DNA of 64,000 nt from Limibacter armeniacum. Its GTDB lineage: Bacteria; Bacteroidota; Bacteroidia; Cytophagales; Flammeovirgaceae. Shown here one piece after another: positions 20,292-42,875 of this stretch. The stretch's first letter is position 1. Each line of letters opens with the position of its first letter. The position numbers and the translations under genes were made by a program. The stretch covers positions 744,001 to 808,000 of the forward strand of contig NZ_JBAJNO010000009.1 of NCBI RefSeq assembly GCF_036880985.1, written 5' to 3'. Under the pieces are notes generated by a model, which did no database searches, had not been told where the DNA came from, and was given only the letters and a program-made list of their open reading frames with translations.

Positions 20292-20365
20292 GGCGAGGTA
20301 GCTCAGTTGGTTAGAGCGCAGGATTCATAACCCTGAGGTCACGGGTTCAACTCCCGTCCTCGCTA
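20292..20365 (+). tRNA. tRNA-Met (CAT), copy 3
   Basis: Same sequence as copy 1. The spacer after it begins a repeated spacer type (TATTTTATTTTCACTATTC) that also follows copy 4 and, diverged, copy 5. Confidence 0.95.
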
Positions 20366-20403
20366 CTATTTTATTTTCACTATTCTGTACAGAATCATTC
20401 TCT

Positions 20404-20477
20404 GGCGAGGTAGCTCAGTTGGTTAGAGCGCAGGATTCATAACCCTGAGGTCACGGGTTCAACTCCCGTCCTCGCTA
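20404..20477 (+). tRNA. tRNA-Met (CAT), copy 4
   Basis: Same sequence as copy 1, with 38-bp spacers on both sides. Confidence 0.95.
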
Positions 20478-20515
20478 CTATTTTATTTTCACTATTCTGT
20501 ACAGAAACACTCTCT

Positions 20516-20589
20516 GGCGAGGTAGCTCAGTTGGTTAGAGCGCAGGATTCATAACCCTGAGGTCACGGGTTCAACTCCCGTCCTCGCTA
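20516..20589 (+). tRNA. tRNA-Met (CAT), copy 5
   Basis: Same sequence as copy 1; the following spacer is a slightly changed version of the one before it. Confidence 0.95.
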
Positions 20590-20625
20590 CTATTCATTTT
20601 TACTATTCAATACAGAACATTCTCT

Positions 20626-20699
20626 GGCGAGGTAGCTCAGTTGGTTAGAGCGCAGGATTCATAACCCTGAGGTCACGGGTTCAACTCCCGTCCTCGCTA
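20626..20699 (+). tRNA. tRNA-Met (CAT), copy 6
   Basis: Same sequence as copy 1 and last of the array; an intrinsic terminator follows 6 bp later. Confidence 0.95.
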
Positions 20700-20705
20700 C
20701 TACTT

Positions 20706-26740: not shown

Positions 26741-26764
26741 GCATAGAACTATCAACCATAATAA

Positions 26765-26806
26765 AAGGCACTATCGGGGATTAAACTTACCTGATAGTGC
26801 CTTTAT
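26765..26806 (+). terminator. Terminator after glnN
   Basis: AAAGGCACTATC pairs with GATAGTGCCTTT around a loop of about 16 bases, followed by ATTTG. It lies between the converging glnN and DnaJ-TPR genes and could serve both. Confidence 0.8.
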
Positions 26807-26811
26807 TTGTA

Positions 26812-27897
26812 TTACTGGCAATATGTTGAAATTGTATCTTCTGCCTTCTTAAAACCTGACTGAGCTGCCCTGAACCAATAATTACAAGCTCTCAAGGTAT
26901 CATGTTCATACCTCAACATATGCATCCCTAAATAGTAATCATTAATAGGGTAAACTTGCTGTAATGCAGCTGCCTGTATCAAGTATTGGTAAGAGTCTTC
27001 ATATTTAGCCTGTTGTTGCAAGGCAACGCCCAACCCTGTATATACTTCAGCCGAAAGGCTATCCATGTCAATTAGTTTCCTGTAAATCACTTCTGCCTCA
27101 CTTCCCTTACCAAGTTCATAAACGTTGATTTTCGCCATACTTGACAGGATTTCACCATCATTCGTATTTCCTATATCCAAGTATTGCTGATAAGCAGTAA
27201 CCGCTTCATTAAAGTTTGATGAGGCCTCGGCTGCTTGCGCATAACCTAAGATATACCTCAAAGAATCATTGTCATCATCGGCGAATGCCCTTGCCCTTCT
27301 GAAATAGACCAAAGCCCGATCAGGTCTATGCAATTTTTCCATAATCACTTGCCCTATTAGCCAGTTGGCATCCGCATGTTCTTCATCTTTCTCTAGAGCT
27401 TGCTTAAGTAAAGTATAGCCCTTCATATAATCTCCACCCTTAATGATCAAAGATGCTTCTTCATAGTGCTTTTGTGCAGTGAAACTATCCATCACACCTC
27501 CAAAAAATAATAAAACAGCTGCCAGCAACCCATACCCTGCGATAAACAGCACAATCTTTTTGGGAGTAAAACGGTCTGCCTCCTTCTGTTTCCTTCGCTC
27601 CTCTGCAAACAAATGGGAATAGTCTCCTGGCTGATAACGACCTTTATGCTCAGGGGTAGGGCTAGGCTGTTGGGTATATTGCTGCACAAGCGAGGCAAAA
27701 CCTGCATCATAATAACTTCGAAGGTTTTTATTCGACAATACACGGTAAGCCTCATTGATCTGCTTAAAGCGTTCTTCAGCCTGATGCCCTTTATTCCTAT
27801 CCGGATGGTACTGCTTTGCCTTAGCTCTGTAAGCCAATTTTATCTGCTGCTCATCTGCATCAATACTGACACCTAATATATCGTAAAATGATTCCAA
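26812..27897 (-). CDS. DnaJ-domain membrane protein with TPR repeats
   Basis: A 361-residue protein. Residues 1-68 are a J domain with the HPD motif at 31-33 (KQYHPDRNKG), which stimulates Hsp70 (DnaK) ATPase. A linker rich in Gln and Pro is followed by one hydrophobic segment (about 112-135, KKIVLFIAGYGLLAAVLLFFGG). The remaining part (about 145-361) consists of tetratricopeptide-like helix pairs (for example DYMKGYTLLKQALEKDEEHADANW and AVTAYQQYLD). The G/F and zinc-finger parts of true DnaJ are missing, so it is a specialised co-chaperone. With the J domain before a single membrane segment, that domain should face the cytoplasm and the TPRs the periplasm, unless the segment is a hairpin. 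Partner and client are unknown. Confidence 0.82.
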   Translation of the reverse strand: MESFYDILGVSIDADEQQIKLAYRAKAKQYHPDRNKGHQAEERFKQINEAYRVLSNKNLRSYYDAGFASLVQQYTQQPSPTPEHKGRYQPGDYSHLFAEERRKQKEADRFTPKKIVLFIAGYGLLAAVLLFFGGVMDSFTAQKHYEEASLIIKGGDYMKGYTLLKQALEKDEEHADANWLIGQVIMEKLHRPDRALVYFRRARAFADDDNDSLRYILGYAQAAEASSNFNEAVTAYQQYLDIGNTNDGEILSSMAKINVYELGKGSEAEVIYRKLIDMDSLSAEVYTGLGVALQQQAKYEDSYQYLIQAAALQQVYPINDYYLGMHMLRYEHDTLRACNYWFRAAQSGFKKAEDTISTYCQ

Positions 27898-28135
27898 TGC
27901 CTCTCTTTATATTTTAGTAAAAGCTAAGTGACGTACACCCATACCTTGTGAGAATAAATTAATCCAATTAAGGTGAGAATTGAACATCTTTCATTTATAA
28001 TAATGAAACACATAAATCATTCCTTTATTCTGTGATATTTTATAGCTTATGCCATTGACAGCAAGCCATATGAATGAATATGGTTTCGATAAAAGCACTT
28101 TCCAATATAAAATTAATCCAATAAACTGAAAGATT

Positions 28136-29041
28136 ATGAAATATTTCATGGGCATTGACGTGGGTGGCACCAATGTCAAGTTTGGGGAAGTAACCTCTGA
28201 TGGAGAGATTCTGAAAAAGAAAAAGTACCCCTCCGCTGAAGTAGGCCTTAATGGTGCATTTGTCGAAAACTTCGTCGCATTGGTTAAAAAAAGACTGGAT
28301 AAGTCTTCCAATGATATTAGAGAAGTTGGTATTGGTCTACCCGGCACCATCTCTGAAGACCGCTCAACAGTGTTGGAAGTCCCTAATATCCCAACTCTAA
28401 GAGGCGCTAAACTACTACGAGAACTGGAAAAGAAAATCCCTAAGGTTAATTTTCACCTAGAAAATGATGCAAATGCCGCTGCCCTTGGTGAATTCTACTT
28501 CGGAAAAGCGAAACTTCCTCCGACTTTTATGTTTATCACTTTAGGAACTGGTGTTGGTGGCGGTGCAATCATCAATAAGAAAATCTTTAAGGGGGGTGAT
28601 GGCAACGGAATGGAAATCGGACATATCGTGGCCAGTAATGGAAAAACCATTGAGGAAAATATTGGAAAAAAAGGCATGATTGGCTTCGTCCGTGAAAAAC
28701 TCAAAAGTGGCTACAAAAGTGTAATAGTGGATGATGATGACTTAAGTTCAAAAGTCATTGCAGCAGCAGCGGAAGAAGGAGACCCATTAGCACTTGAAGT
28801 TTATCAGATGTATGGTAAGTACCTTGGTGAGTTAATCGTGTCATGTGTCAGAATATTGGATATCAAAACCATCCTGATTGGTGGCGGTGTAGCTGAAGCT
28901 TATGATCACCTTGAAGAATCCATGAACAAAACCATTCACCAATACCTAACACCTTATTACACAGACCACCTTGACATCAAACTAGCAACACTTGCCAACA
29001 AGGCAGGTATTATAGGGGCAGCCTCACTCTGTTTCCAATAA
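28136..29041 (+). CDS. ROK-family sugar kinase or glucokinase-like protein
   Basis: A 301-residue ROK protein. The phosphate-1 ATP motif is GIDVGGTNVKFG (residues 6-17), and the sugar-binding and catalytic region is LENDANAAALGE with D111 as likely base, followed by TLGTGVGGGAI. The EIGH motif is at 160-163. It lacks the zinc-binding CxCGxxGCxE that normally follows: the expected cysteines are absent in residues 164-185. This places it in the zinc-free group of glucokinase-like ROK kinases. No helix-turn-helix domain is attached, so it is an enzyme rather than a repressor. It is followed 63 bp later by an outer-membrane protein on the same strand. The sugar is not known; glucose or a hexosamine is plausible. 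Confidence 0.86.
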   Translation: MKYFMGIDVGGTNVKFGEVTSDGEILKKKKYPSAEVGLNGAFVENFVALVKKRLDKSSNDIREVGIGLPGTISEDRSTVLEVPNIPTLRGAKLLRELEKKIPKVNFHLENDANAAALGEFYFGKAKLPPTFMFITLGTGVGGGAIINKKIFKGGDGNGMEIGHIVASNGKTIEENIGKKGMIGFVREKLKSGYKSVIVDDDDLSSKVIAAAAEEGDPLALEVYQMYGKYLGELIVSCVRILDIKTILIGGGVAEAYDHLEESMNKTIHQYLTPYYTDHLDIKLATLANKAGIIGAASLCFQ

Positions 29042-29104
29042 AATATCAACTTTCAACCAGCTATTATTTTCTAAGTCCCCAATTAGGTACACCTCCAATT
29101 GCCT

Positions 29105-30292
29105 ATGAATCACTTAGCTTACAGGTTCATTTTTTCACTGCTATGCTTGTACTTACCGATTATCTGTCTCTCTCAGAAAGTCAAGCAACCTCCTGAAAAA
29201 TCTGTTTGGAAAAATATTGACTCCCTTCGTATTGCAGAGATTGAAATGGGAAAGTCGAAATTCACTCCTTTCATTGCACCTTCCTACACCCCTGAGATGA
29301 AGTTCCTATTTTCTGCGGGTGGCCTTTTCACCTTTACCAACGACAAGAAAAACCCTTTACTCACTCGTTCTTCCATCCCATTTTCAGTTGGAATCAGTAG
29401 TAATGGATCTTTCCAGTTAAGTGTGAGGGCTAACCTCTACAGTAAAGGTGATAAAGTAAGACAAGTAGGAGAATTCTGGATAAAGGACATGCCTGACAAC
29501 TATTGGGGTGTTGGGTACAGCAACGGCAGAAACAGGGAGCAAGACCGTAACACAACAGGCTATCACAGGTTATGGTGGCGCTTTTATGACAAAATCATAT
29601 ACCAATACAAAACCAATTACTTTGTTGGGGTTGCAGTTGACCTAAATAAAACAGAGGCTTCTGATCTCAACCCTTTAATGGAAGATGACCCTTTTATCCT
29701 AAGGGATGGCACTGAAATAAGAAACTCAGGCATTGGAGGTGTTTTCCAGTTTGACAGCCGGGATTTGGCAGTCAACGCCTATAAAGGTATGCTACTGGAT
29801 GTCAGTTTTATTATCTATGGAGGATTACTAGGAGGTGAAAATCATTTTCAGGTACTAGAAATTGACTATCGACAATACAAGAAAGTCAGTCCACTCAGAA
29901 GGGTATTGGCTTGGCAGGTAAAAGCAAAGACTACCTTCAGTAAAGCCCCTTGGACAGAGCTTGCGCAGCTAGGCTCTCCATTTGACTTAAGAGGGTATTA
30001 TTGGGGGCGATACAGAGATGAATCAATGCTTTTTGGCTTACTCGAATACAGACATATGTTTCAGCGAAAAACGCCCAACAAACAAGGAAAACTCGAAAGT
30101 CGGTCCGGTTTTGCAGCGTGGACTGGACTTGGAGCCGTTGGTCAGGAGTTTTACAACTTAAGAGGTAAATGGCTCCCCAATATTGGAGTAGGTTACAGAC
30201 TCGAGGTCCAACCAAGAATGAACCTTCGTATTGACTTTGGCTTGGGAGTCAAGTCCAATGCCCTTTACTTCTCCTTCAATGAAGCTTTTTAA
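29105..30292 (+). CDS. Omp85-type outer-membrane beta-barrel protein (POTRA-less)
   Basis: A protein of 395 residues when started at the ATG at 29105; the frame extends only two codons further to a TTG. It has a signal peptide (about residues 1-22, ending LS-Q), then a short linker and beta strands with alternating hydrophobic residues. The C-terminal part carries features of the BamA/TamA surface-antigen barrel (PFDLRGYYWGRYRDESMLFG, followed by an EYRHMF strand and a final aromatic strand). There is room for a barrel but not for POTRA domains, so it is a short Omp85-like protein of unknown role. It starts 63 bp after the ROK gene and could share its transcript. It ends 10 bp before the convergent gene at 30303. 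Confidence 0.8.
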   Translation: MNHLAYRFIFSLLCLYLPIICLSQKVKQPPEKSVWKNIDSLRIAEIEMGKSKFTPFIAPSYTPEMKFLFSAGGLFTFTNDKKNPLLTRSSIPFSVGISSNGSFQLSVRANLYSKGDKVRQVGEFWIKDMPDNYWGVGYSNGRNREQDRNTTGYHRLWWRFYDKIIYQYKTNYFVGVAVDLNKTEASDLNPLMEDDPFILRDGTEIRNSGIGGVFQFDSRDLAVNAYKGMLLDVSFIIYGGLLGGENHFQVLEIDYRQYKKVSPLRRVLAWQVKAKTTFSKAPWTELAQLGSPFDLRGYYWGRYRDESMLFGLLEYRHMFQRKTPNKQGKLESRSGFAAWTGLGAVGQEFYNLRGKWLPNIGVGYRLEVQPRMNLRIDFGLGVKSNALYFSFNEAF

Positions 30293-30302
30293 ATACCGGA
30301 CT

Positions 30303-31313
30303 TTAACCTCTTAGTTCAGTCATTAGTACATCCTCCATCATTTTCATTTCAAATAACCTTTCCAACTTATAGGCTTCATCTTCCAATTCATATGTTCTGG
30401 CTATATTAATCAGGTTCTCGTCACTATCCTCCTGCCAAGTAAACATTGCATTATACAGGTCTTCTACCGTATCAATACTTTTACCTGAATAATCATTGAT
30501 TCTTAACTCCAACAGTGACAGCAACACAGAGACTCCTTGCTTTTGTCTGTTAGGTTCTGGTTCATTTATTATTTCAGTCAAAAGAGCAATAAGTGAGATG
30601 TTCAAATTAATAGTCCCCTTATAAGTAGAGTGAACCGTACCTGTTGCCCCTGCATCTGCTTCCCAATTACGATCAAAAAGCACTTCCTTAAAATATCCCT
30701 CCCCTTTTTTGCCACATAATGAAAAACCTAAAATAATTCCTGCATTACAATCAGTAGAACAATACTCACTTCCTGACTCATACAAATTTTCAAGCACTTC
30801 AACTTGATCCTTTAACTTACAAACCAAAGCTGGTGTAAACTCAGGAAACAGATTCTTTTGATAGGTTTCCTTAATTTTTGCAAGGATTAATTCTTCAATT
30901 TCAAAACAATCAAAATTCAACAAACCTAATGCTGCACTTCTTTTGGTATAATGATCTCCTACATTATTTAATGCAAAATGCACTAAATAAGGCTTGATAG
31001 GCTCAAATTTCAATTTCCCAAGCAACTCCATCAGCTCCAACTCAGGTAATTCACTATCCTCAAAAGATATGTTTTTCAGGTGTGTGTCAAATATTTTCGG
31101 GGCAAAAGATTCATCTCCCCACTTTTCAAAAACACCAATCAAATACTCGCTGTAAAACTCATATTTGGATGAGACAAAATAATCCAGAAGGGCTTCTGCA
31201 TCCTCTTTTGATCCACACATCAAAATTGCATTCACATAAGTAGCAACTACTTGAGTATTTTTCTCACCATCCTGTGAAAGATACTTGATCAACTTATCGG
31301 TAGTCTTGAGCAT
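30303..31313 (-). CDS. Hypothetical protein of helical repeats
   Basis: A 336-residue soluble protein without signal peptide or membrane segment. It is almost entirely predicted helix, with acidic character and a spacing of hydrophobic residues that suggests HEAT-like helix pairs (for example KRSAALGLLNFDCFEIEELIL). I cannot assign it to a named family. Two cysteine-containing patches (EYCSTDCNAG and SLCGKKGEGYF) near residues 183-205 are the only distinctive motifs. Repeat proteins of this kind mediate protein contacts. It is convergent with the Omp85-like gene, with only 10 bp between the stops, and lies downstream of parC, separated by a terminator. Confidence 0.6.
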   Translation of the reverse strand: MLKTTDKLIKYLSQDGEKNTQVVATYVNAILMCGSKEDAEALLDYFVSSKYEFYSEYLIGVFEKWGDESFAPKIFDTHLKNISFEDSELPELELMELLGKLKFEPIKPYLVHFALNNVGDHYTKRSAALGLLNFDCFEIEELILAKIKETYQKNLFPEFTPALVCKLKDQVEVLENLYESGSEYCSTDCNAGIILGFSLCGKKGEGYFKEVLFDRNWEADAGATGTVHSTYKGTINLNISLIALLTEIINEPEPNRQKQGVSVLLSLLELRINDYSGKSIDTVEDLYNAMFTWQEDSDENLINIARTYELEDEAYKLERLFEMKMMEDVLMTELRG

Positions 31314-31324
31314 ATCATTTTTTA

Positions 31325-31360
31325 ATTAAAAAAGCACTCCAAATTATGTTGGAGTGCTTC
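31325..31360 (-). terminator. Terminator after parC
   Basis: AAGCACTCCAA pairs with TTGGAGTGCTT around a six-base loop; on the minus strand the stem runs into TTTTTTAATTAAAA. It lies between the parC stop at 31388 and the next minus-strand gene. Confidence 0.85.
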
Positions 31361-31387
31361 TCTGTATTTCAATCATTCAGCCAGTAT

Positions 31388-34003
31388 TTAGAAAATACCA
31401 AGCTGATTGGTTTTTACATTATCATTCACATCATCATCCTTCTTCTTGGCTGCGTCTGCTTTTTCCTGCTCTTCAGTCACCGGATCATCTTCTGATGTAA
31501 GCTCTGCCTCTACAGAAGTATCATAAGGAAGCTTTTTACCGAGCGCCTTCCAGCCCATTACATCTGTATAGTCTTTCAGTTCCTCAGTCGTTTTACTCTT
31601 CTTACGACCTTCTTTGTAACTGATGTCTACCACAGGGTTCTCCTGAAGTGTTGCCATCAGCAAACGAGAAGCAGGGTAATCTGTAATGAACTTGAAGCGT
31701 TTGTTCATGGTCGTTGTTTCGATCAGGAATCGCTTCACATAATACGCACGGTTGTTTGTATCATAATGTACAGCTGTGATTACCTTGTTTGGTCTGAATT
31801 TCTCCAACACCACGATACGTCTCGTATCATAGCGATTGGTCAACTCAAAGTTGGTCAACTCGTACTCACCAGTATCAAAAATAACGATAATCTTGTCTTC
31901 GTCCTTGAATTTACCAAGGTACTTACCGTTACCATCCTTATTCAAGATGCCTACAGACTCATCAAACCAAAGGTCTACAGCTGGCAAGGTAGACACACCT
32001 TCCTGTACCAGTGTCACTCTTCTTACAGGATACTTGGTCAGGATATTTCCTTGTGATGTACGCCCCTTGATTTCAAGTTCAGCAAAATCATATTCAAATG
32101 ACTTTATTTTGGCCTTGCTGTTAGGTGAAAGTGATACTCCTACAATTTCTGCCTCACCGTTAGGGTTGGCTGAGAAATAAAGCACTTTACTGCCTTTATC
32201 ACCTTTTGTTACATCATACTCACGGTCTCTGGTAAAACTCAGTACTTGGAAACGTTTCACGCGTGATACACCTGATTTACCATCCAGATAAACACAGTTG
32301 TAAATCTTGCGCTCGTCTCCTTTTACATAAACTTCCGCATGAATAATGTCTTTACCCACAAACAGCTTTTCAGCAATCTTGGTGACCATATATTTACCGT
32401 CACGACGGAATACAATGATATCATCAATATCAGAACACTCCATCACTTCTTCTACGCTTTCATCTTTCTTGAGGGCATAACCGATAAAGCCTTCCTTACG
32501 GTCAACATACAGTTTAGCATTGTTTGCTGCCACTTTAGCAGCCTGAATTGTATCGAAGTTTGCAATTTCTGTGTTACGCTCTCTTCCCTTGCCGTATTTC
32601 TTCAATAGGTCCTTGAAGTAAGAGATCGCATATTCAATCATATTCGCCAAATGATGCTCAACTTCCTCCAACTGATCCTGAAGTCCTTTCATCACCTCAT
32701 CAGCCTTGAAGGAGTCAAATTTTGAGATACGTTTGATCTTGATCTCTGTAAGTCTGACGATATCTTCCTCTGTTATCTCACGGTAGAAGTCTGGCTTATA
32801 TGGCTCAAGTCCTTTATCAATTGTTTGAATTACCGCTTCCCACGTTTCACATTCCTCAATCTTGCGGTAGATTCTATTTTCGATAAAGATTTTCTCCAAT
32901 GATGAGAAAAGGATTTTTTCAAGCAATTCAGCACGCTGAATCTCCAACTCTCTCTTCAGCAGGTTAATCGTATTATTGGTATTAACCTTAAGAATATCGT
33001 TAACCGACATAAAGTGTGGACGCTCATCAATAATGACACAAGCGTTTGGAGAAATAGAAACTTCACAGTCTGTAAAGGCATACAATGCCGCAATCGCAAC
33101 ATCAGGAGACTGTCCTGTACCTAGTTGTACCTCTACCTCTACATGTTCGGCTGTATTGTCAATAACCTTCTTGATCTTGATCTTGCCTTGGTCATTGGCT
33201 TTAATGATCGAATCAATAAGGCTGGTCGTGGTAGTAGCGTACGGGATTTCCTTGACCAGGAGTGTTTTATTATCATGTACCTCAATCCTTGCTCTCACAC
33301 GGATTTTACCACCTTTCAGACCTCCATTATAGTTAGAGAAGTCTGCCTGTCCACCAGTAGGAAAATCTGGATAGAGGCTTACTTCCTTACCTTTCAGTAT
33401 ATCAATAGAACCCTTTATCAACTCCACAAAGTTGTGAGGCATAATTTTGGTCGCCAAACCAACGGCAATACCTTCTACACCCTGAGCCAACAATAAAGGG
33501 AATTTCACAGGCAAATTAATAGGCTCCCTCTTACGACCGTCATAAGAAAGCTGCCATTCAGTTGTTTTTGGGTTGAAGACAACATCCAATGCCAGTTTTG
33601 AAAGTCTTGCCTCAATGTAACGTGGCGCTGCAGCACTATCACCAGTCCTAACATCACCCCAGTTACCTTGTGTATCAATCAGGAGGTCTTTCTGACCAAG
33701 GTTCACTATAGCATCTCCAATGGCTGCATCACCATGAGGGTGAAACTGCATTGTACTACCAATAATGTTTGCCACCTTATTGAAACGACCGTCATCCAGC
33801 TCCTTCATTGCATGCATGATCCTACGTTGCACAGGCTTGAAACCATCTTCCAGCGCAGGTACCGCACGTTCTAGAATTACATAAGAAGCATAATCCAAAA
33901 ACCAGTTCTCATACATACCGGACACGTGCAGCGTTTGGCTGCCTCCATGTTCGATGTGAGATTCATCGTTGTGGTCTTCTTGTTTGTTTAGTTCGTTTTC
34001 CAC
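31388..34003 (-). CDS. parC: DNA topoisomerase IV subunit A (Bacteroidota type)
   Basis: An 871-residue type IIA topoisomerase subunit that cuts and rejoins DNA in chromosome decatenation with ParE. The catalytic tyrosine is Y129 in AAPRYIEARLS. The conserved helix is at about residues 80-100 with HPHGD at 88-92. After it come the winged-helix/tower part, a coiled-coil region (about 430-470) and a C-terminal beta-propeller domain (about 500-790). The final ~80 residues are charged and low in complexity. The position matching quinolone-target Ser83 of E. coli GyrA is alanine (A93). Distinguishing ParC from GyrA rests on the Bacteroidota-type sequence GQKDLLIDTQGNWGD and on the N-terminal extension. 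No parE is in the window. Confidence 0.9.
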   Translation of the reverse strand: MENELNKQEDHNDESHIEHGGSQTLHVSGMYENWFLDYASYVILERAVPALEDGFKPVQRRIMHAMKELDDGRFNKVANIIGSTMQFHPHGDAAIGDAIVNLGQKDLLIDTQGNWGDVRTGDSAAAPRYIEARLSKLALDVVFNPKTTEWQLSYDGRKREPINLPVKFPLLLAQGVEGIAVGLATKIMPHNFVELIKGSIDILKGKEVSLYPDFPTGGQADFSNYNGGLKGGKIRVRARIEVHDNKTLLVKEIPYATTTTSLIDSIIKANDQGKIKIKKVIDNTAEHVEVEVQLGTGQSPDVAIAALYAFTDCEVSISPNACVIIDERPHFMSVNDILKVNTNNTINLLKRELEIQRAELLEKILFSSLEKIFIENRIYRKIEECETWEAVIQTIDKGLEPYKPDFYREITEEDIVRLTEIKIKRISKFDSFKADEVMKGLQDQLEEVEHHLANMIEYAISYFKDLLKKYGKGRERNTEIANFDTIQAAKVAANNAKLYVDRKEGFIGYALKKDESVEEVMECSDIDDIIVFRRDGKYMVTKIAEKLFVGKDIIHAEVYVKGDERKIYNCVYLDGKSGVSRVKRFQVLSFTRDREYDVTKGDKGSKVLYFSANPNGEAEIVGVSLSPNSKAKIKSFEYDFAELEIKGRTSQGNILTKYPVRRVTLVQEGVSTLPAVDLWFDESVGILNKDGNGKYLGKFKDEDKIIVIFDTGEYELTNFELTNRYDTRRIVVLEKFRPNKVITAVHYDTNNRAYYVKRFLIETTTMNKRFKFITDYPASRLLMATLQENPVVDISYKEGRKKSKTTEELKDYTDVMGWKALGKKLPYDTSVEAELTSEDDPVTEEQEKADAAKKKDDDVNDNVKTNQLGIF

Positions 34004-34301
34004 GGCTATCTATATTTTAAATGCTATGATTCAATATGATCTACCTGAAAATCAAGTAAAAAAATTCTTAGGCATTTCTACGAAAAATCATATTTCCGTT
34101 CAAAATGCCTTAAATATAAACATTCACACTCATTTTCGTAAATACGCCACAAATTTAATCAAAAAAAGGTGTAATTGTACTTATCGATCTATGCAATATT
34201 CAAAAATGTCTTTTTTATAAACATTTACAGATCATTTTTTAAACAATATTGATTTTTTACACTCATTAACACTCAAAGTACTATTTTTTTTAATCCTAAT
34301 A

Positions 34302-34332
34302 TTTGGAGAAATAAAAAAACGCCTTACCTTTG
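34302..34332 (+). promoter_or_regulatory. Promoter of the Pro/Arg tRNA array
   Basis: TTTG followed after 19 bp by TACCTTTG, a perfect fit to the Bacteroidota -33/-7 consensus. The first tRNA begins 65 bp downstream. The gap 34004-34397 is otherwise AT-rich and shows no gene. Confidence 0.7.
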
Positions 34333-34397
34333 CAAAGCGTTTCAAAAAAGAGGCTTTTAGCAATAATCTTGCCAACTTTAAAAACGCAAAAAATGTT

Positions 34398-34472
34398 CGG
34401 GGCGTAGCGCAGCCCGGTTAGCGCACCTGCTTTGGGAGCAGGGGGTCGCAGGTTCGAATCCTGCCGCCCCGA
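34398..34472 (+). tRNA. tRNA-Pro (TGG), copy 1
   Basis: Acceptor CGGGGCG/CGCCCCG, anticodon loop TTTGGGA with anticodon TGG, T arm GCAGG/CCTGC. CCA is not encoded. Confidence 0.95.
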
Positions 34473-34556
34473 CGAACAGAATTAGAGACTTTAGAAAAGT
34501 CGGTTCAGAGATTGAAAAGTAAAATTGGATATCTCGATCTAAGATCTAAAAAGCTT

Positions 34557-34630
34557 GGTCCGGTAGCTCAACTGGATAGAGCTTCTGCCTTCTAAGCAGA
34601 AGGTTCCAGGTTCGAGTCCTGGCCGGATCA
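34557..34630 (+). tRNA. tRNA-Arg (TCT), copy 1
   Basis: Acceptor GGTCCGG/CCGGATC (with a G-T pair at the second position), anticodon stem TCTGC/GCAGA with loop CTTCTAA, anticodon TCT. CCA is not encoded. Confidence 0.95.
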
Positions 34631-34666
34631 CTATCATCAGTTTGGCAATTACACCAAATAATTGTT

Positions 34667-34741
34667 CGGGGCGTAGCGCAGCCCGGTTAGCGCACCTGCT
34701 TTGGGAGCAGGGGGTCGCAGGTTCGAATCCTGCCGCCCCGA
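34667..34741 (+). tRNA. tRNA-Pro (TGG), copy 2
   Basis: Identical to copy 1, with the same GTT before and CGAACA after the gene. Confidence 0.95.
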
Positions 34742-34812
34742 CGAACAATTGAATGATGTTAGATTTAAGAACCACTTATCAAAGTTTCGACAATCTGACT
34801 CGGTAAAAGCTT

Positions 34813-34886
34813 GGTCCGGTAGCTCAACTGGATAGAGCTTCTGCCTTCTAAGCAGAAGGTTCCAGGTTCGAGTCCTGGCCGGATCA
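34813..34886 (+). tRNA. tRNA-Arg (TCT), copy 2
   Basis: Identical to copy 1, and like it preceded by AAGCTT. Confidence 0.95.
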
Positions 34887-34918
34887 CCTTGTTTGGGTCA
34901 GCCGTGGCCCAAACCGTT

Positions 34919-34993
34919 CGGGGCGTAGCGCAGCCCGGTTAGCGCACCTGCTTTGGGAGCAGGGGGTCGCAGGTTCGAATCCTGCCGCCCCGA
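34919..34993 (+). tRNA. tRNA-Pro (TGG), copy 3
   Basis: Identical to copies 1 and 2; last of the array. Confidence 0.95.
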
Positions 34994-35002
34994 CGAAACA
35001 GT

Positions 35003-35040
35003 AAAAGCTGTCTCAATTATTTGAGACAGCTTTTTTTTAT
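35003..35040 (+). terminator. Terminator of the Pro/Arg tRNA array
   Basis: AAAGCTGTCTCAA pairs with TTGAGACAGCTTT around TTAT, followed by further T. Confidence 0.92.
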
Positions 35041-35062
35041 GTCCATACTTTATCTTTTTAAT

Positions 35063-35099
35063 TAAAAAAAGTCGGCCCGAACAACTCGAACCGACTTCC
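35063..35099 (-). terminator. Terminator of the double GH14 gene
   Basis: AAGTCGG pairs with CCGACTT with an inner CGA/TCG pair; on the minus strand it runs into eight T. It is 8 bp past the stop at 35107. Confidence 0.85.
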
Positions 35100-35106
35100 A
35101 TAAGTA

Positions 35107-37842
35107 TTAATAGGACAACTTCTGTATCAACTCCTTAAAGCTTGCCAAGCCATATTCGGGTGCAGACATCAGATCCTGCATCCTCAAAACAGTCAACCCT
35201 TTATAGGATTTCTCTCTCGTCAAGGCTCTCTCTACTTGCTCCCACCCTTCTTTGATCAACAATTCATGAGGGGTTGCATTCTCTCCCATTACTTCCACTC
35301 CTAGTACATAGGCCGCTTCAGCCATCCAAATCACCAAATCTTCAGCTCTTGAATAACCTTTATAATCCATATTGTACTTTTCCAGACAAGTAAAATGAAG
35401 TTCTAACCTGTCTTTTATATCTGGTGTAACGATCTTACCCAAAAACTCCTTGTACTCTCCGTGGTTTTTGGCGCTTAGGTTTTCATGGGAAGCAATCAAA
35501 CCTGCCGTAATCTCAGAGCTTCTTGGCATTTCTGGATCACTGATATTCCAATGTATACCTGGAATCTTGAATCCAATAGGCGTCTCCCTATACTCTGATG
35601 TTCCAAAAACATCTAATGCTTGCTGCAATACTCTACGACCGTGCTTCACCAAAGAACGGTTATACCATTCGATTACATTTCTGCCATAAACAGTATGGAT
35701 GTAATCTTTACTAGTAAAGAAGGCATCAACATCTGCTGGCAAATGAATTTCCTCTTCATCCTTAATATGCGTACCCCAAGCCTTATTAACACTTTCAATA
35801 TCCTGATAATAATCCACTACCCATTTCCTAAAGCTTTCTTTAGCCAACCTTGAGTAGCACTGCAAAGTACCCCGGTTAGGATAATCTCCCCAGTCATGGG
35901 CATTATAAGATGGGTAACGTAATTCCCCTGCAGGTCCTAAGCTGACATTAACTTCTTCTGTCATATCAGCAAACTCACTGTAGTGATCCCTGAAAGCCTC
36001 CATAAACTTGCGGTAATAAGGCATCACAAACCTGTCAGCCCAAAGGGACACATATTCTATACTGGCATCTCCAGTTTCTGAAACATACTGTAAGTCACTG
36101 ATACACTTAATTTCTGGGTACTCCATTAATTTCCCCCAAACCCATAGCGGAATCAATTGCAAAAAGTCATCATTTACATTACCGCCTGCTTGATGGAATG
36201 AAAGTATTGGCACCCAGTTCAAGCCATTGGAGCGAATTTTCCTCACAATGGTGTCATAGTACCTCCAATCGTAACTATTTTCTCCATTTGCCTGCACCAG
36301 TCCCCACCAAACATCAATTGAAACGGCTGTTACACCTGTTTCTTTGATCAGTTTCAGTTGCCTATCAAACTCAAACCATTGCTCATCCTCCAGTAGTTTC
36401 CTATGCGAAGTAGCTTTCACATGCAAAGGTCCCATCACACGGAATACCCTTTTCCGCTTAGGAACCGTTGACAAGTCATTTTTCAGACCTTCTACCATAC
36501 GGGTCAACCGCTGTCTTCCGATAGGGTTTTCCTCCATCAATGTCTGAATACTCTTCAAGTTGACTCCATGAAATGGCACTTCCCTGAAAAGCATCTTCTC
36601 CATCTGATCCCAAGACCTGTTATGATAAAGAGCATCCGACACGCCATTTTCTGCCACAAGACCAATTCCAAGCTTATTGGCTGCATCGGCTATCCAACCT
36701 GACAAGTCCCCTCCTCTACTGTAACCTTTATGATCCTTGTTCTCTTTTTCTACACAAGTGAAGTGAAGTACCGTTCGATCTCTATACTCCTCAGGTACAA
36801 TCTTCTCTAAAGCAGTCACATACTCCCCTTGATCATAATAGCTTAGCTTTTCATGTGTATCAATAATCCCAGAAGTGATCTCAGCTACTCGCGGCTCCAC
36901 AGGGTCACTGATTTTCCAATGCACACCAGCTATTCTAAAACCTACCTTCGCATGATTAAAGAAAAGGTTATCAAGCTCCTTGAATGATGCCGTTAGCATC
37001 CTGTTACCATGCTCCACCAAGCAGCTATGGTACCAATTGACAACATCCCGACCATATTGGGTATTGATATATGCCTTATCCTTGAAGATGTCATAATTTC
37101 GGTCCGGAAGCTCTACCTGACCAAAGTTATTCATAATACGGTCCCAAGCTTCGTTCACGGCTTCAATTGCTCCGTACTTATCCATTACATACTGTACAAA
37201 TGACTTCTTTGCCAGTCTTGAATAACACTGCAAGGTACCTCTGTTCGGGTAGCCACCCCAGTCATGCAAATCAAATGAAGGATAACGGAGCTCACCACTT
37301 GGCCCCATACTGATGATAATTTTCCTCAGGTCTTCCTTATTGTACTGGAACAGCTTCAGAAACTCATGTATAAACTCCTGATACAATGGAACAACATATT
37401 CATCTGACCAAAGTGAAACATACTCCGAAGATTTCTCACCTGTCTCACTGACATACTTCAGGTCAGATATCTTCTCCACCTTACTCTGTGTAATCAGCAG
37501 TTCTCCCCACAGCCATTCAGGCAGTGTCTGAACCTGATTCAGTTGGGATGCATATATAAAATGGAAACACAACTCAGGGACAAAACCCATCCTGTGAGAC
37601 TCCAAAATTCTTTTTACTCTCAGACAGTAAGACCAGTCAAAGTCTCTCCTGTCTTCCTCATTCACACGCCCCCAGAAGATCGGCACGACAACGTCTTGCA
37701 CTCCCAGTTGCTTCATTTCTTTCACCCACTGTTCAAACTGCTTCCACTCTTGCTCACTTCTCTCCTGCAAATTGGAAAGGTTAACGCTGAGTGGAGCTGT
37801 TACTTCGACCAGTCTGTTAGATGTTTTCAGGCCCGTAAGCAT
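35107..37842 (-). CDS. Tandem double-domain beta-amylase (GH14)
   Basis: A 911-residue protein made of two GH14 beta-amylase-like halves (about 1-455 and 465-911). GH14 enzymes release maltose from the non-reducing end of alpha-1,4-glucans. Both halves have the acid residue in (G/L)GP(S/A)GELRYPS (E184 and E640) and the base in (A/G)EN(G/A) (E398 and E854), and both share HDWG-x-YPNRGTLQCYSRLAK. The second half also has DVWWG and the flexible-loop motif GGNVND (553-558); the first half has lost both (PIFWG and an unrelated FIYASQ). So the second half looks fully active and the first may be altered. There is no signal peptide, so it should be cytoplasmic, acting on glycogen-like glucan. GH14 is rare in Bacteroidota as far as I know. 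It stands alone. Confidence 0.88.
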   Translation of the reverse strand: MLTGLKTSNRLVEVTAPLSVNLSNLQERSEQEWKQFEQWVKEMKQLGVQDVVVPIFWGRVNEEDRRDFDWSYCLRVKRILESHRMGFVPELCFHFIYASQLNQVQTLPEWLWGELLITQSKVEKISDLKYVSETGEKSSEYVSLWSDEYVVPLYQEFIHEFLKLFQYNKEDLRKIIISMGPSGELRYPSFDLHDWGGYPNRGTLQCYSRLAKKSFVQYVMDKYGAIEAVNEAWDRIMNNFGQVELPDRNYDIFKDKAYINTQYGRDVVNWYHSCLVEHGNRMLTASFKELDNLFFNHAKVGFRIAGVHWKISDPVEPRVAEITSGIIDTHEKLSYYDQGEYVTALEKIVPEEYRDRTVLHFTCVEKENKDHKGYSRGGDLSGWIADAANKLGIGLVAENGVSDALYHNRSWDQMEKMLFREVPFHGVNLKSIQTLMEENPIGRQRLTRMVEGLKNDLSTVPKRKRVFRVMGPLHVKATSHRKLLEDEQWFEFDRQLKLIKETGVTAVSIDVWWGLVQANGENSYDWRYYDTIVRKIRSNGLNWVPILSFHQAGGNVNDDFLQLIPLWVWGKLMEYPEIKCISDLQYVSETGDASIEYVSLWADRFVMPYYRKFMEAFRDHYSEFADMTEEVNVSLGPAGELRYPSYNAHDWGDYPNRGTLQCYSRLAKESFRKWVVDYYQDIESVNKAWGTHIKDEEEIHLPADVDAFFTSKDYIHTVYGRNVIEWYNRSLVKHGRRVLQQALDVFGTSEYRETPIGFKIPGIHWNISDPEMPRSSEITAGLIASHENLSAKNHGEYKEFLGKIVTPDIKDRLELHFTCLEKYNMDYKGYSRAEDLVIWMAEAAYVLGVEVMGENATPHELLIKEGWEQVERALTREKSYKGLTVLRMQDLMSAPEYGLASFKELIQKLSY

Positions 37843-38239
37843 AATAGTATTTTATTTATAGTAGTGACTCACAAAAGTCACTTCACACACACATTAATAT
37901 GAAGTAAGTTACAGTTAACACCTACCTCCAGGTGCGGTCAAAATACGCTTTAAGGAACAAGTCTGCACACATTTGGAGTGGTATTTCTCATTATCCCCCA
38001 TATTATTTTTCTGCAACCGTTTGAAATTCAAACGCTCTATCTGATTCAATTGTATAATTTGTCTAAAACAGGATTTTACCTTAATCGGTTTCACACCTTT
38101 CTTTGATCAGTATCCTTACTAGTATTGTAGAATAGTAAGTTTACACTACCTGCTATCTGCCCATATCCATTTCTTTTTTTGGGTATTTATCATTTATTTA
38201 GCCATATCTAATTGCTGACCAACATAAATTCAAAAACAG
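37843..38239. other. 397-bp divergent intergenic region
   Basis: It must hold the promoters of the GH14 gene and of the DUF3467 gene. An inverted repeat CTTACTA...TAGTAAG (38115-38139, 11-bp spacer) lies about 100 bp before the DUF3467 start and could be an operator or a leader hairpin. No ORF or clear -7 box was found. Confidence 0.5.
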
Positions 38240-38563
38240 ATGGAGAACGAGGAAAAAAAATTACCTGAAAACCAAATCAATATAGAACTAACGGAAGATG
38301 TAGCGGAAGGGGTTTATGCTAATCTGGCGATGATTGCCCACTCCAACAGTGAGTTTGTGCTGGATTTTATCAGAATGATGCCAGGTGTTCCAAAAGCGAA
38401 AGTAAAATCAAGAGTCATCCTGACTCCTGAACACGCTAAAAGGCTGATGCATGCCTTACAGGACAACCTTCAGAAATATGAGCAAAGTTTTGGACCGATT
38501 AAAAGAACAGAAGATGCCCCAAAATTCCCAATGGGATTCGGAGGTACAATGGGTGAAGCTTAA
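38240..38563 (+). CDS. DUF3467 protein
   Basis: A 107-residue protein of the DUF3467 family, known widely in Bacteroidota but without an assigned function. It has the typical order: a charged N-terminus, an INIELTEDVAEGVYANLAMIAHS strand-and-turn region, FVLDFIRMMPGVPKAKV, and an ILTPEHAKRLMHALQDNLQKYE helix near the end. It is cytoplasmic by appearance. The terminator after it isolates it from the lipase-like gene. Confidence 0.88.
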   Translation: MENEEKKLPENQINIELTEDVAEGVYANLAMIAHSNSEFVLDFIRMMPGVPKAKVKSRVILTPEHAKRLMHALQDNLQKYEQSFGPIKRTEDAPKFPMGFGGTMGEA

Positions 38564-38595
38564 TCCGGTTTATCTCATGAAATCATAACCATTAC

Positions 38596-38648
38596 AAAGC
38601 GTCAATATCTGAGGTATACCACATCTCAGGGTTGACGCTTTTTTTATA
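38596..38648 (+). terminator. Terminator after DUF3467
   Basis: AAAGCGTCAA and CTGAG pair with CTCAG and TTGACGCTTT around an 11-base loop, followed by T. Confidence 0.85.
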
Positions 38649-38666
38649 TCAATAAACACACAACCT

Positions 38667-39506
38667 ATGGATTTCAATTTCAGTTGGGAAACCAAAGACA
38701 AAGTTGTATTGGAAGGCAAGGGATGGATGCCTGACAACCAACAACCGAAAGCCATTATCTGTATGGTACATGGATTTGGCGAACACATTGGTCGTTATGA
38801 ACATGTTGCAAAATTCTTCAACACACATGGGTACGGTTTTATCGGATACGACCTACGTGGTCATGGCAAATCAGGAGGCAAACGGGGTGTCGTACCGAGC
38901 TATGACTCCCTAATGGAAAACATCACTGAATTCCTAGCACTGGTTCACAGTAAGTTTGAAGGTATTCCTATTATCCTATATGGACATAGCATGGGCGGAA
39001 ATCTGGTAACTGTCTACACCCTTCGTGAACGTCCATCCATTGTAAAAGCTGTCATTGTTACGAGTCCTTGGTTACGATTGACCAATACACCAGCCAAGCC
39101 TGTGGTCATGGTCGGAAAAGTGATTGGTAACTTACTCCCATCCTTCACCCTTCCAACCAAGTTGGTTCCTGAAGACCTTTCCTCTGACCTAACCGTTGGC
39201 AGAAAATACCAGGATGACCCACTTGTTCATGGAAAAATCAGTTCAATGCTTTTCTCAGGAGTCAATGACGCTGGACAATGGGCGCTACTTAATGCAAACC
39301 TATTAAAACACCCACTATTGCTTATGCATGGCAACGCTGACAATATCACTTCTCACAAAGCAAGTGAAGAGTTTATCAGAAATGCTCCTTCTGACCTTGT
39401 CACATACAAAAGCTGGAACGGTATGCGCCATGAGCTACACAATGAAATGGTTAAAGACAAAGTCTTGGAAGAAGAACTTCAGTTTATACAACTACACCTC
39501 AATTAA
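38667..39506 (+). CDS. Alpha/beta hydrolase, monoacylglycerol-lipase-like
   Basis: A 279-residue serine hydrolase of the Hydrolase_4 (monoglyceride lipase / lysophospholipase) group. The nucleophile elbow is GHSMGG (IILYGHSMGGNLVT), the oxyanion region is MVHGFGEHIGRY, the acid is probably the Asp of MHGNADNIT, and the histidine is that of MRHELHNE. All three catalytic residues are present at the usual spacing. There is no signal peptide, so it is cytoplasmic, probably acting on monoacylglycerol or lysophospholipid. A terminator follows directly. Confidence 0.87.
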   Translation: MDFNFSWETKDKVVLEGKGWMPDNQQPKAIICMVHGFGEHIGRYEHVAKFFNTHGYGFIGYDLRGHGKSGGKRGVVPSYDSLMENITEFLALVHSKFEGIPIILYGHSMGGNLVTVYTLRERPSIVKAVIVTSPWLRLTNTPAKPVVMVGKVIGNLLPSFTLPTKLVPEDLSSDLTVGRKYQDDPLVHGKISSMLFSGVNDAGQWALLNANLLKHPLLLMHGNADNITSHKASEEFIRNAPSDLVTYKSWNGMRHELHNEMVKDKVLEEELQFIQLHLN

Positions 39507-39510
39507 TATA

Positions 39511-39547
39511 AAAATGGACAGCACTTAAGGTACTGTCCATTTTTTTC
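39511..39547 (+). terminator. Terminator after the hydrolase gene
   Basis: AAAATGGACAG pairs with CTGTCCATTTT, followed by T. It lies between the converging hydrolase and mscS genes. Confidence 0.88.
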
Positions 39548-39549
39548 GA

Positions 39550-40401
39550 TCAGCTCAAAGGCACTGAACTGCTTACTATATGTAAATCCTGCTGTGGGAA
39601 TGGCACTACAACTCCCCTTTCCCTAAACAATTCATCGATCCGAAACCTTAACTCACTACTGATCACTTCCATTCTCCAAACATCCTCTGACCAGAAATAC
39701 AGCTCAAAATCCAAGGAAGAATTTCCAAAGTCAGAAAAGATCACTACAGGCTCCAAATGCTTTGTAACAGACTTATGCTCATAAGCACACTGCAACAACG
39801 TATCTCTTACCAACTTGAGATCTGATCCGTACGCCACCCCTACTTTGATCTTAAATCGGGTAGAGTTATTTCCTTCTGACCAGTTCACGACATTGTCAGT
39901 AATAAATTTTGAGTTAGGAATAATGATTACAATCTCATCCTTTGTCACTACCAATGATGTTCTGAAACCTATCTTCTGCACCCTACCTACAAGTCCATCT
40001 ATCTCAACAACATCCCCATTATTCACCTGACCTTCAAAAAGAATAAATAGTCCTGCTGCCAAATCATAAAACACCTGTTGCAACCCTAACCCAACACCTA
40101 CCAACAAGGCTGCCGAACCTGCCAGAAATAGACTTACATCGAGGTCTAGGATTTGCAGCACCAATATGACCAACACCACATAAGAGAGGTACTTCATTAC
40201 CTGCAATAAGTTCCCTGCTCTTCGAATGTCAATACCAGATTGCATATGCATAAAGCGTTCAACTCTACCATAAACAATTCTCCCCACAAATTTGAAAAAT
40301 ACAACTAACAGCGCTATAATAACTAACTGAAATGGGGTAAAGGATTTTCCCTGAAATTCAAATAATGGGTAGTTCAGAAACTCCTGAAGCGACAAATTCA
40401 T
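39550..40401 (-). CDS. Small-conductance mechanosensitive channel (MscS family)
   Basis: A 283-residue MscS-family channel of the inner membrane. Three hydrophobic segments lie in the first ~130 residues; the pore helix is glycine- and alanine-rich (LFLAGSAALLVGVGLGLQQ). The beta domain follows: LFEGQVNNGDVVEIDGLVGRVQKIGFR, then IPNSKFITDNVVNWSEGN. The last part is the alpha/beta vestibule domain. The family opens on membrane tension to release solutes during a fall in osmolarity, as expected for a marine bacterium. It is convergent with the hydrolase gene. Confidence 0.92.
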   Translation of the reverse strand: MNLSLQEFLNYPLFEFQGKSFTPFQLVIIALLVVFFKFVGRIVYGRVERFMHMQSGIDIRRAGNLLQVMKYLSYVVLVILVLQILDLDVSLFLAGSAALLVGVGLGLQQVFYDLAAGLFILFEGQVNNGDVVEIDGLVGRVQKIGFRTSLVVTKDEIVIIIPNSKFITDNVVNWSEGNNSTRFKIKVGVAYGSDLKLVRDTLLQCAYEHKSVTKHLEPVVIFSDFGNSSLDFELYFWSEDVWRMEVISSELRFRIDELFRERGVVVPFPQQDLHIVSSSVPLS

Positions 40402-40607
40402 AGTTAAAGAAAGTTATTATTGATGCCTTACATCTCAACAAGATTAAAAAATGTCTTACAATTATCTAATTATACAATTATTTTATCACTATATTTCAGA
40501 TAAATGTTCAATTTAGAAATGAACATATGATTCTGCTATCTTTAGTCAGCGCATAGCTGATTTCTGTTGACCCCTTTTTTTGAATAACCCAAAACCTAGA
40601 GTTTTAT

Positions 40608-40988
40608 ATGGAAGCATTGCTGATCGAACAAAAAGAGTTTATCCCACTAATCGACTTTAATACTGACTCAGACATTTTATCTATTTCTGGACAATCTTAT
40701 CACGAATACACTACAGAGTTTTTCCAGCCGGTCTTTAAATGGCTTAGAGAGTACCTTTCCACTCCTAATCGGGAAGTTACGCTCAACTTTAAGATGACAT
40801 ACTTCAATACAGCCTCTTCAAAGTGTTTTTACCACATTATTGAGATGCTGTATGAATATGACATTTCAGGAGAAGGGAAGGCTATTGTCAACTGGTATTA
40901 TCCAATCAACGATGAGGATATGATGGAAACTGGAGAGGACTACAAGTTTGACTCTGAATGGGAAAACATCACGCTTATCCCTTATTAG
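40608..40988 (+). CDS. SiaC-like (DUF1987) regulatory phosphoprotein
   Basis: A 126-residue DUF1987 protein. The family includes SiaC of Pseudomonas, a phosphoprotein controlled by the phosphatase SiaA and kinase SiaB that binds a diguanylate cyclase. The conserved YFNTASSK motif lies at residues 65-72, and its threonine is T68, at the position of the known phosphorylation site of SiaC. The hydrophobic strand pattern and the C-terminal EWENITL are also typical. No SiaA, SiaB or GGDEF gene is in the window, so its partners must be elsewhere. Confidence 0.82.
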   Translation: MEALLIEQKEFIPLIDFNTDSDILSISGQSYHEYTTEFFQPVFKWLREYLSTPNREVTLNFKMTYFNTASSKCFYHIIEMLYEYDISGEGKAIVNWYYPINDEDMMETGEDYKFDSEWENITLIPY

Positions 40989-41771: not shown

Positions 41772-41848
41772 TGGCGGAACGGACGGGACTCGAACCCGCG
41801 ACCCCCTGCGTGACAGGCAGGTATTCTAACCAACTGAACTACCGCTCC
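41772..41848 (-). tRNA. tRNA-Asp (GTC), copy 10 in transcript order
   Basis: Acceptor GGAGCGG/CCGTTCC, anticodon stem CCTGC/GCAGG with loop CTGTCAC and anticodon GTC, discriminator G, and encoded CCA. Last gene before the terminator. Confidence 0.95.
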
Positions 41849-41884
41849 AGTTTCTGATCTTTTAAGACTTTCAGACCGTCTTGT

Positions 41885-41961
41885 TGGCGGAACGGACGGG
41901 ACTCGAACCCGCGACCCCCTGCGTGACAGGCAGGTATTCTAACCAACTGAACTACCGCTCC
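41885..41961 (-). tRNA. tRNA-Asp (GTC), copy 9
   Basis: Identical to the neighbouring copies, with encoded CCA. Confidence 0.95.
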
Positions 41962-41999
41962 AGTTTCTGATCTTTTGGAAGACTTTCAGACCGTCTTGT

Positions 42000-42076
42000 T
42001 GGCGGAACGGACGGGACTCGAACCCGCGACCCCCTGCGTGACAGGCAGGTATTCTAACCAACTGAACTACCGCTCC
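42000..42076 (-). tRNA. tRNA-Asp (GTC), copy 8
   Basis: Identical to the neighbouring copies, with encoded CCA. Confidence 0.95.
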
Positions 42077-42112
42077 AGTTTCTGATCTTTTAAGACTTTC
42101 AGACCGTCTTGT

Positions 42113-42189
42113 TGGCGGAACGGACGGGACTCGAACCCGCGACCCCCTGCGTGACAGGCAGGTATTCTAACCAACTGAACTACCGCTCC
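42113..42189 (-). tRNA. tRNA-Asp (GTC), copy 7
   Basis: Identical to the neighbouring copies; the upstream spacer has GATCGT instead of GACCGT. Confidence 0.95.
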
Positions 42190-42227
42190 AGTTTCTGATC
42201 TTTTGGAAGACTTTCAGATCGTCTTGT

Positions 42228-42304
42228 TGGCGGAACGGACGGGACTCGAACCCGCGACCCCCTGCGTGACAGGCAGGTATTCTAACCAACTGAACTACCG
42301 CTCC
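42228..42304 (-). tRNA. tRNA-Asp (GTC), copy 6
   Basis: Identical to the neighbouring copies; both adjacent spacers carry the GATCGT variant. Confidence 0.95.
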
Positions 42305-42340
42305 AGTTTCTGATCTTTTAAGACTTTCAGATCGTCTTGT

Positions 42341-42417
42341 TGGCGGAACGGACGGGACTCGAACCCGCGACCCCCTGCGTGACAGGCAGGTATTCTAACC
42401 AACTGAACTACCGCTCC
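42341..42417 (-). tRNA. tRNA-Asp (GTC), copy 5
   Basis: Identical to the neighbouring copies, with encoded CCA. Confidence 0.95.
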
Positions 42418-42455
42418 AGTTTCTGATCTTTTGGAAGACTTTCAGACCGTCTTGT

Positions 42456-42532
42456 TGGCGGAACGGACGGGACTCGAACCCGCGACCCCCTGCGTGACAG
42501 GCAGGTATTCTAACCAACTGAACTACCGCTCC
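42456..42532 (-). tRNA. tRNA-Asp (GTC), copy 4
   Basis: Identical to the neighbouring copies, with 38-bp spacers on both sides. Confidence 0.95.
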
Positions 42533-42570
42533 AGTTTCTGATCTTTTGGAAGACTTTCAGACCGTCTTGT

Positions 42571-42647
42571 TGGCGGAACGGACGGGACTCGAACCCGCGA
42601 CCCCCTGCGTGACAGGCAGGTATTCTAACCAACTGAACTACCGCTCC
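42571..42647 (-). tRNA. tRNA-Asp (GTC), copy 3
   Basis: Identical to the neighbouring copies, with 38-bp spacers on both sides. Confidence 0.95.
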
Positions 42648-42685
42648 AGTTTCTGATCTTTTGGAAGACTTTCAGACCGTCTTGT

Positions 42686-42762
42686 TGGCGGAACGGACGG
42701 GACTCGAACCCGCGACCCCCTGCGTGACAGGCAGGTATTCTAACCAACTGAACTACCGCTCC
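42686..42762 (-). tRNA. tRNA-Asp (GTC), copy 2
   Basis: Identical to the neighbouring copies; the upstream spacer is a 36-bp form with GACTGT. Confidence 0.95.
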
Positions 42763-42798
42763 AGTTTCTGATCTTTTAAGACTTTCAGACTGTCTTGT

Positions 42799-42875
42799 TG
42801 GCGGAACGGACGGGACTCGAACCCGCGACCCCCTGCGTGACAGGCAGGTATTCTAACCAACTGAACTACCGCTCC
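42799..42875 (-). tRNA. tRNA-Asp (GTC), copy 1 (promoter-proximal)
   Basis: First gene of the array in the direction of transcription, with encoded CCA; the promoter candidate lies 36 bp upstream of it. Confidence 0.95.

Follow-up and report, generated by a model that had tools for sequence, protein, structure and literature searches.

A recurrent tandem GH14 protein of Limibacter armeniacum, probably a beta-amylase with an attached pseudo-beta-amylase partner

Inactive members of the beta-amylase family are described in plants and, as far as the accessible portions of the cited articles extend, the closest precedents for an attached inactive GH14 domain are the plant BAM4, BAM9 and BZR1-type proteins. 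The Arabidopsis proteins BAM4 and BAM9 are non-catalytic and regulate starch breakdown (PMC8774843, available text). BAM9 is devoid of the flexible loop and carries Gln in place of the second catalytic Glu and Pro in place of Thr; the recombinant protein was inactive and is termed a nonenzymatic regulator of starch degradation in the available text of PMC8774843. An excerpted review (PMC12892837) reports that BAM9 interacts with BAM1 and that the inactive BAM4 binds amylose and amylopectin. According to the accessible part of PMC6394054, Glu-186 is conserved even in inactive plant BAM clades and Glu-380 is kept in most BAM10. The maize BZR1-type beta-amylase (7upv) is a GH14 barrel with, according to the title of the structure, a 'noncatalytic adaptation', joined to a BZR-type domain and not to a second GH14 domain (PMC6394054, same portion). 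Among bacterial enzymes, the beta-amylases of Bacillus cereus and Paenibacillus polymyxa (1b90, 3voc) possess a single GH14 domain.

The protein analyzed here is encoded in a stretch of 64,000 nucleotides of the Limibacter armeniacum genome, hereafter called the window, and contains two GH14 domains. Its C-terminal half aligns with the B. cereus and P. polymyxa enzymes across the catalytic domain, including the Glu pair, and its N-terminal half has the same predicted fold. The N-terminal half shares with BAM9 and BAM4 a GH14 barrel in which the flexible loop is lost or altered (PMC8774843, accessible text), but differs from both in retaining the second Glu (E398) and the Thr (T362, at the anchoring Thr position). 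Related bacterial N-halves come closer: some have also lost the second Glu, the Thr or both, the Thr being replaced by Pro in the Flammeovirga N-halves as in BAM9, and the residue losses are of the same kind as those of inactive plant BAMs in the parts of PMC8774843 and PMC6394054 at hand. BAM4 and BAM9 are separate polypeptides, whereas the altered bacterial barrel shares its chain with a second one that appears to be active.

The architecture was established with Pfam and with direct alignment of the halves. The GH14 family (PF01373, cut-off 27 bits) matches the 911-residue protein in two stretches and, when the halves were scanned separately, scored 217.6 bits for the N-half (residues 1-461) and 312.4 bits for the C-half. 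Aligned to each other, the halves share 183 identities over 442 residues (41%) with a score of 932, which may be compared to a maximum of 60 in 200 shuffled alignments. The preliminary description, made from the sequence, had proposed two fused GH14 domains with the Glu pairs E184/E398 and E640/E854 about 456 residues apart and a loop restricted to the second domain. All of this is confirmed: the four Glu residues are present with a pair-to-pair spacing of 456, and the strings GGNVND (residue 553) and DVWWG (residue 510) each occur once, in the C-half. Pfam detected no starch-binding module in the protein, which is probably cytosolic judging by eye from its N-terminus. The coordinates of the features are collected in Table 1.

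Table 1. Features of the tandem GH14 gene, in window coordinates. Counts refer to doubles from 29 genomes.
Feature	Position	Strand	Evidence
Whole gene, tandem GH14 protein, 911 aa	35107..37842	-	ORF, Pfam, half-versus-half alignment
N-terminal GH14 half, residues 1-463, predicted non-working as beta-amylase	36454..37842	-	Pfam, AlphaFold, VIA-align
C-terminal GH14 half, residues 464-911, beta-amylase predicted to be active	35110..36453	-	Pfam, complete active-site residues
P54, replaces substrate-binding Asp (soybean D53)	37681..37683	-	P in 28/29, S in 1/29
E184, N-half general-acid equivalent	37291..37293	-	E in 26/29
E398, N-half general-base equivalent	36649..36651	-	E in 23/29
D510, C-half equivalent of soybean D53	36313..36315	-	D in 29/29
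Flexible-loop motif GGNVND, residues 553-558, C-half only	36169..36186	-	in 29/29 C-halves
E640, C-half general acid	35923..35925	-	E in 29/29; aligns with B. cereus E172 (counted by hand)
E854, C-half general base	35281..35283	-	E in 28/29, gap in 1; aligns with B. cereus E367 (counted by hand)

That the first half adopts the GH14 barrel is supported by structure prediction. The AlphaFold model of residues 1-461 displays a mean pLDDT of 81.2 and a pTM of 0.86, with a stretch of low confidence (190-202) directly after E184. A Foldseek search of the PDB ranked beta-amylases first (E 5.6e-28). Superposition with VIA-align gave a Z of 38.1 to 3voc (rmsd 2.7 over 404 residues) and of 32.2 to the BZR1-type protein 7upv, and other glycosidase barrels followed from Z 24.5 down. 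The full-length model has a pTM of 0.58, at which the arrangement of the halves is not reliable, and it therefore offers no interface in support of a partner role.

The preliminary description considered GH14 uncommon in Bacteroidota. At the scale of the phylum this holds: in a draw of 395 Bacteroidota genomes, seven had a GH14 match, only one of them strong (the window's own) and six weak and partial, with at most 29.5 bits per single stretch, although four of these six still exceed the curated cut-off. It does not hold for the window's own family. GH14 matches were found in 14 of 58 related genomes (the window's included); the 12 strong ones all correspond to the same fused double and represent 12 of the 18 genomes of that family. 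A scan of named genomes with the alignment of these 12 sequences retrieved 36 loci, namely 22 doubles (including L063, whose C-half is cut by the contig end), one C-half truncated where its contig begins (L065) and 13 single-domain loci; the scan used two peptide patterns, one of which is the start of the C-half of doubles, so that the ratio of doubles to singles is biased. Doubles were observed in Flammeovirga, Persicobacter, Aeromonas and other Aeromonadaceae, Neiella, Psychromonas, Aliagarivorans, Agarivorans and Alginatibacterium. Free of the peptide-pattern bias, a Pfam search of 394 genomes from the order to which an Aeromonas genome belongs (seven of which belong to another sample as well) gave 27 genomes with a match, distributed as 22 doubles, two single domains, one fragment with stops and two weak matches. 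The fragment (L124, genome G741) contains two internal stops and is possibly a pseudogene.

The tandem is thus not unique to this genome, a possibility rejected by the doubles of the family, of Persicobacter and of the Gammaproteobacteria. Such recurrence across genomes indicates an established architecture rather than an assembly accident, and the frequency of tandem GH14 genes in sequenced genomes means that the window protein is no isolated oddity. The claim that a tandem GH14 was undescribed consequently stands for the literature and not for the sequence record: no description was found in the titles, abstract beginnings and passages covered by the literature search, where some matches apparently concerned the prefix only (GH146, GH149). 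The accessible part of PMC5385347 lists Flammeovirga pacifica with one GH14.

The history of the two halves was addressed with a tree built from 19 N-halves, 19 C-halves and 9 single-domain proteins (47 domains in total). The N-halves fall on one side with a support of 100/100, the C-halves with 94/90 and the single-domain proteins with 100/100. A single shared duplication behind all doubles fits the tree, on sequence evidence that is good but imperfect, as the tree tool flags long branches among the N-halves. Separate duplication in each phylum was rejected by forcing the Cytophagales N- and C-halves together (p-AU 0.005). A topology with the Cytophagales C-halves as a single clade is not rejected (p-AU 0.108). 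That doubles occur in two phyla suggests that the fused gene was transferred, in one direction or the other. The tandem is in sum a real, old and shared architecture. The single-domain proteins of Geodermatophilus and kin, of Alkaliphilus and of two Aeromonas-order genomes differ from it in having one GH14 region each. Over the best segment, the 13 single-domain loci (L071-L076, L078-L084) share 41-45% identity with the query; three of them sit in open frames of 902-954 aa, of which the GH14 region was studied. The two Aeromonas-order singles (L107 of genome G484 and L114 of genome G824), whose starts look signal-peptide-like by eye, cluster with the Alkaliphilus and Geodermatophilus proteins, apart from the doubles.

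Active-site residues were counted in the doubles of 29 genomes and in a separate alignment of 19 doubles and 9 single-domain relatives. Positions are labeled with what we take to be the soybean numbers for D53, W55, H93, K295, H300, W301, N381 and R420. The numbers of Glu186, Glu380 and Thr342 are those given in the accessible text of PMC8774843. All eleven positions (the eight above, E186, T342 and E380) are retained in 19/19 C-halves and 9/9 single-domain relatives. In the larger set the eleven positions checked are intact in 28 of 29 C-halves; the remaining one has gaps at the final four, which fits the contig-cut L063. The C-half of the window protein has the Glu pair, the loop GGNVxD, D53, K295, T342 and R420, and should on this sequence evidence be an active beta-amylase.

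The N-halves display a very different picture. The equivalents of D53, K295 and the loop motif are gone in 29/29 doubles, the K295 position being occupied by Arg (25), Asn (2) or Leu (2), and in the 19-row alignment none of the N-halves retains D53, W55, K295 or R420 (0/19 each). Asp is found in the D101 column of 7/19 N-halves, but the alignment is gappy in this region. A GGN-like string occurs in a single N-half of 29 (a Flammeovirga sequence), some 35-40 residues past the place of the loop, and we take it as a chance occurrence. At the general-acid position 26 N-halves have Glu, two have Asp and one has Gln; at the general-base position 23 have Glu, four Gln and two Gly. Both are retained as Glu in 22/29 doubles, and one or both are gone in seven, which form three groups: Aeromonas simiae, two Psychromonas, and Agarivorans with Aliagarivorans and Alginatibacterium. 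The His-Trp pair (308-309 in the window protein) is kept in 5/29 N-halves.

The N-half of the window protein has the catalytic Glu pair (E184, E398) and is devoid of the flexible loop and of the substrate residues D53, K295 and R420. Without these it is a GH14 homologue that cannot be classed as a working beta-amylase, and its intact Glu pair leaves room for some, possibly altered, activity. In this N-half and its four nearest relatives in the tree, the two Glu, the Asn that follows the second of them and the His-Trp pair are all retained, as is the Thr in four of these five sequences; a fully dead domain would be expected to retain less. The two Glu and that Asn do not vary among the N-halves of the 12 family sequences; the N-halves of the genus supplying nine of the 12 differ at most other active-site positions.

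The two halves also evolve at different rates. Mean identity among the 19 doubles is 28% for the N-halves and 59% for the C-halves, the former being lower in 171/171 pairs. In 12 of 12 close pairs dN is higher in the N-half, by a factor of 1.6 to 6.5 in ten pairs and of 8 to 9 in the two closest, in which very few C-half changes underlie the ratio. In the eight usable pairs, dN/dS is 0.03-0.30 for the N-half and 0.01-0.13 for the C-half; these ratios are rough, N-half dS being beyond correction in the four pairs left out and greater than 1 in five of the eight used (once 3.1). Free decay of the N-half is rejected by such low values, which indicate a domain under selection and not freely drifting. 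Loss of residues and faster change under maintained purifying selection suggest that the beta-amylase site is dispensable and that the N-half domain is still needed. Its conserved positions are mostly Trp, Gly and Pro common to the C-half.

On the whole, the GH14 gene stands alone. No starch gene was recognised in the ten neighbouring ORFs scanned (24551 to 40988), which include DNA topoisomerase IV subunit A, a DUF3467 protein, a hydrolase, an MscS-type channel, SiaC and a ROK kinase. The earlier statement that the gene stands without other starch genes agrees with these neighbours; GH77 and CBM48 genes are found elsewhere in the genome. In a comparison of 34 loci and the window (ORFs of at least 90 aa, with our own ORF caller and genus labels), each neighbour family was common to at most two of 13 groups, and the shared neighbours thus do not tie the GH14 gene to glycogen; the cut locus L065, mislabelled as Flammeovirga in this comparison, is in no listed shared family beyond GH14. 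In Neiella marina (L054:12792-16555) the two genes that come next after the tandem gene, in the same orientation, encode an MFS_2 sugar transporter and a GH94 phosphorylase, as seen among 10 neighbouring ORFs scanned; the comparison shows no such pair in common with another genus group. Three tRNA arrays were also observed in the window: six tandem tRNA-Met (CAT) genes at 20051-20700 (plus strand, start-to-start 110-124 bases), ten tandem tRNA-Asp (GTC) genes at 41772-42875 (minus strand, 115-base repeat, 9.7 copies, 98% matches) and five genes alternating between tRNA-Pro (TGG) and tRNA-Arg (TCT) at 34398-34994 (plus strand), the latter lying between the topoisomerase and GH14 genes, which are 1.1 kb apart.

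Elsewhere in the genome we found a glycogen-synthase-like GT5 match, four CBM48 matches and a GH77 4-alpha-glucanotransferase (L128, genome G000, C8:2264555-2266453), which is about 930 aa long, includes two CBM20 stretches and presumably resembles plant DPE2. These genes make an intracellular glucan a plausible substrate. A specific link of the tandem GH14 to GH77/CBM20 was rejected, since GH14-free relatives likewise carry long GH77 frames and no GH77 match was found in one of the GH14 genomes. Glycogen phosphorylase is represented in the window's genome by a 42-bit partial match only, and in full length in one of 18 genomes, that one without GH14, which is too few for inferring a replacement. 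The search for maltose phosphorylase gave a 27-bit GH65-like match only.

From the sequence comparisons and predictions on domains, shared origin, residue loss, selection and fold, we infer that the protein is probably a beta-amylase (C-half) with a covalently attached pseudo-beta-amylase partner (N-half), standalone and probably cytosolic. The C-half would be the working enzyme and cleave maltose off glycogen or maltodextrin chains at their non-reducing ends. The N-half would be a GH14 barrel without a flexible loop to close over the glucan, and the disappearance of its sugar-holding Asp, Lys and Arg would preclude beta-amylase action; it would be retained as an attached partner which most likely stabilizes or regulates the C-half or contacts the glucan. 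That both halves are ordinary beta-amylases releasing maltose, as the two intact Glu pairs of the window protein might suggest, is highly improbable with N-halves lacking the loop motif and three substrate-binding residues.

The preliminary description had left the choice between an enzyme of altered specificity and a glucan-binding partner, and the relatives favour a non-catalytic partner through the loss of D53, K295 and the loop in 29/29 doubles and of a Glu in 7/29. A live N-half that has kept the two Glu, has lost the loop by which a beta-amylase releases maltose and cuts another alpha-glucan or acts as a transferase would agree with the purifying selection and with the Glu and Asn residues invariant in the family, but we regard it as rather improbable: D53, K295 and R420 are found in 0/19 N-halves, and the seven doubles that lost a Glu keep the architecture. 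Nor is a kept Glu proof of catalysis, given that inactive plant BAMs retain Glu-186 and most BAM10 Glu-380 (PMC6394054, accessible part). A special case of the partner role, with glycogen bound close to the C-half in the former cleft or at a site on the surface of the N-half, would be consistent with the predicted GH14 fold of the N-half and, by analogy, with the reported binding of amylose and amylopectin by BAM4 (PMC12892837, excerpt). We consider such a glucan-binding module unlikely, as several sugar-contact residues are among those lost and the conserved positions are mostly the Trp, Gly and Pro residues common to the C-half.

As a tentative and rather doubtful extension of the attached-partner reading, the protein may be a prokaryotic, covalently linked counterpart of the plant regulatory pseudo-beta-amylases, in which the inactive half would sense or dock glycogen and control the active half, the fused pair having been exchanged as a unit between Cytophagales and Gammaproteobacteria. 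The tandem GH14 proteins provide a conserved example, in two bacterial phyla, of an enzyme apparently carrying its own pseudoenzyme twin. As this twin is at different stages of decay across genera, the order in which catalysis is lost in a retained glycoside hydrolase becomes readable and testable. The architecture may also serve as a one-gene system for asking why inactive beta-amylases persist, a question posed in plants in the accessible portions of the literature cited.
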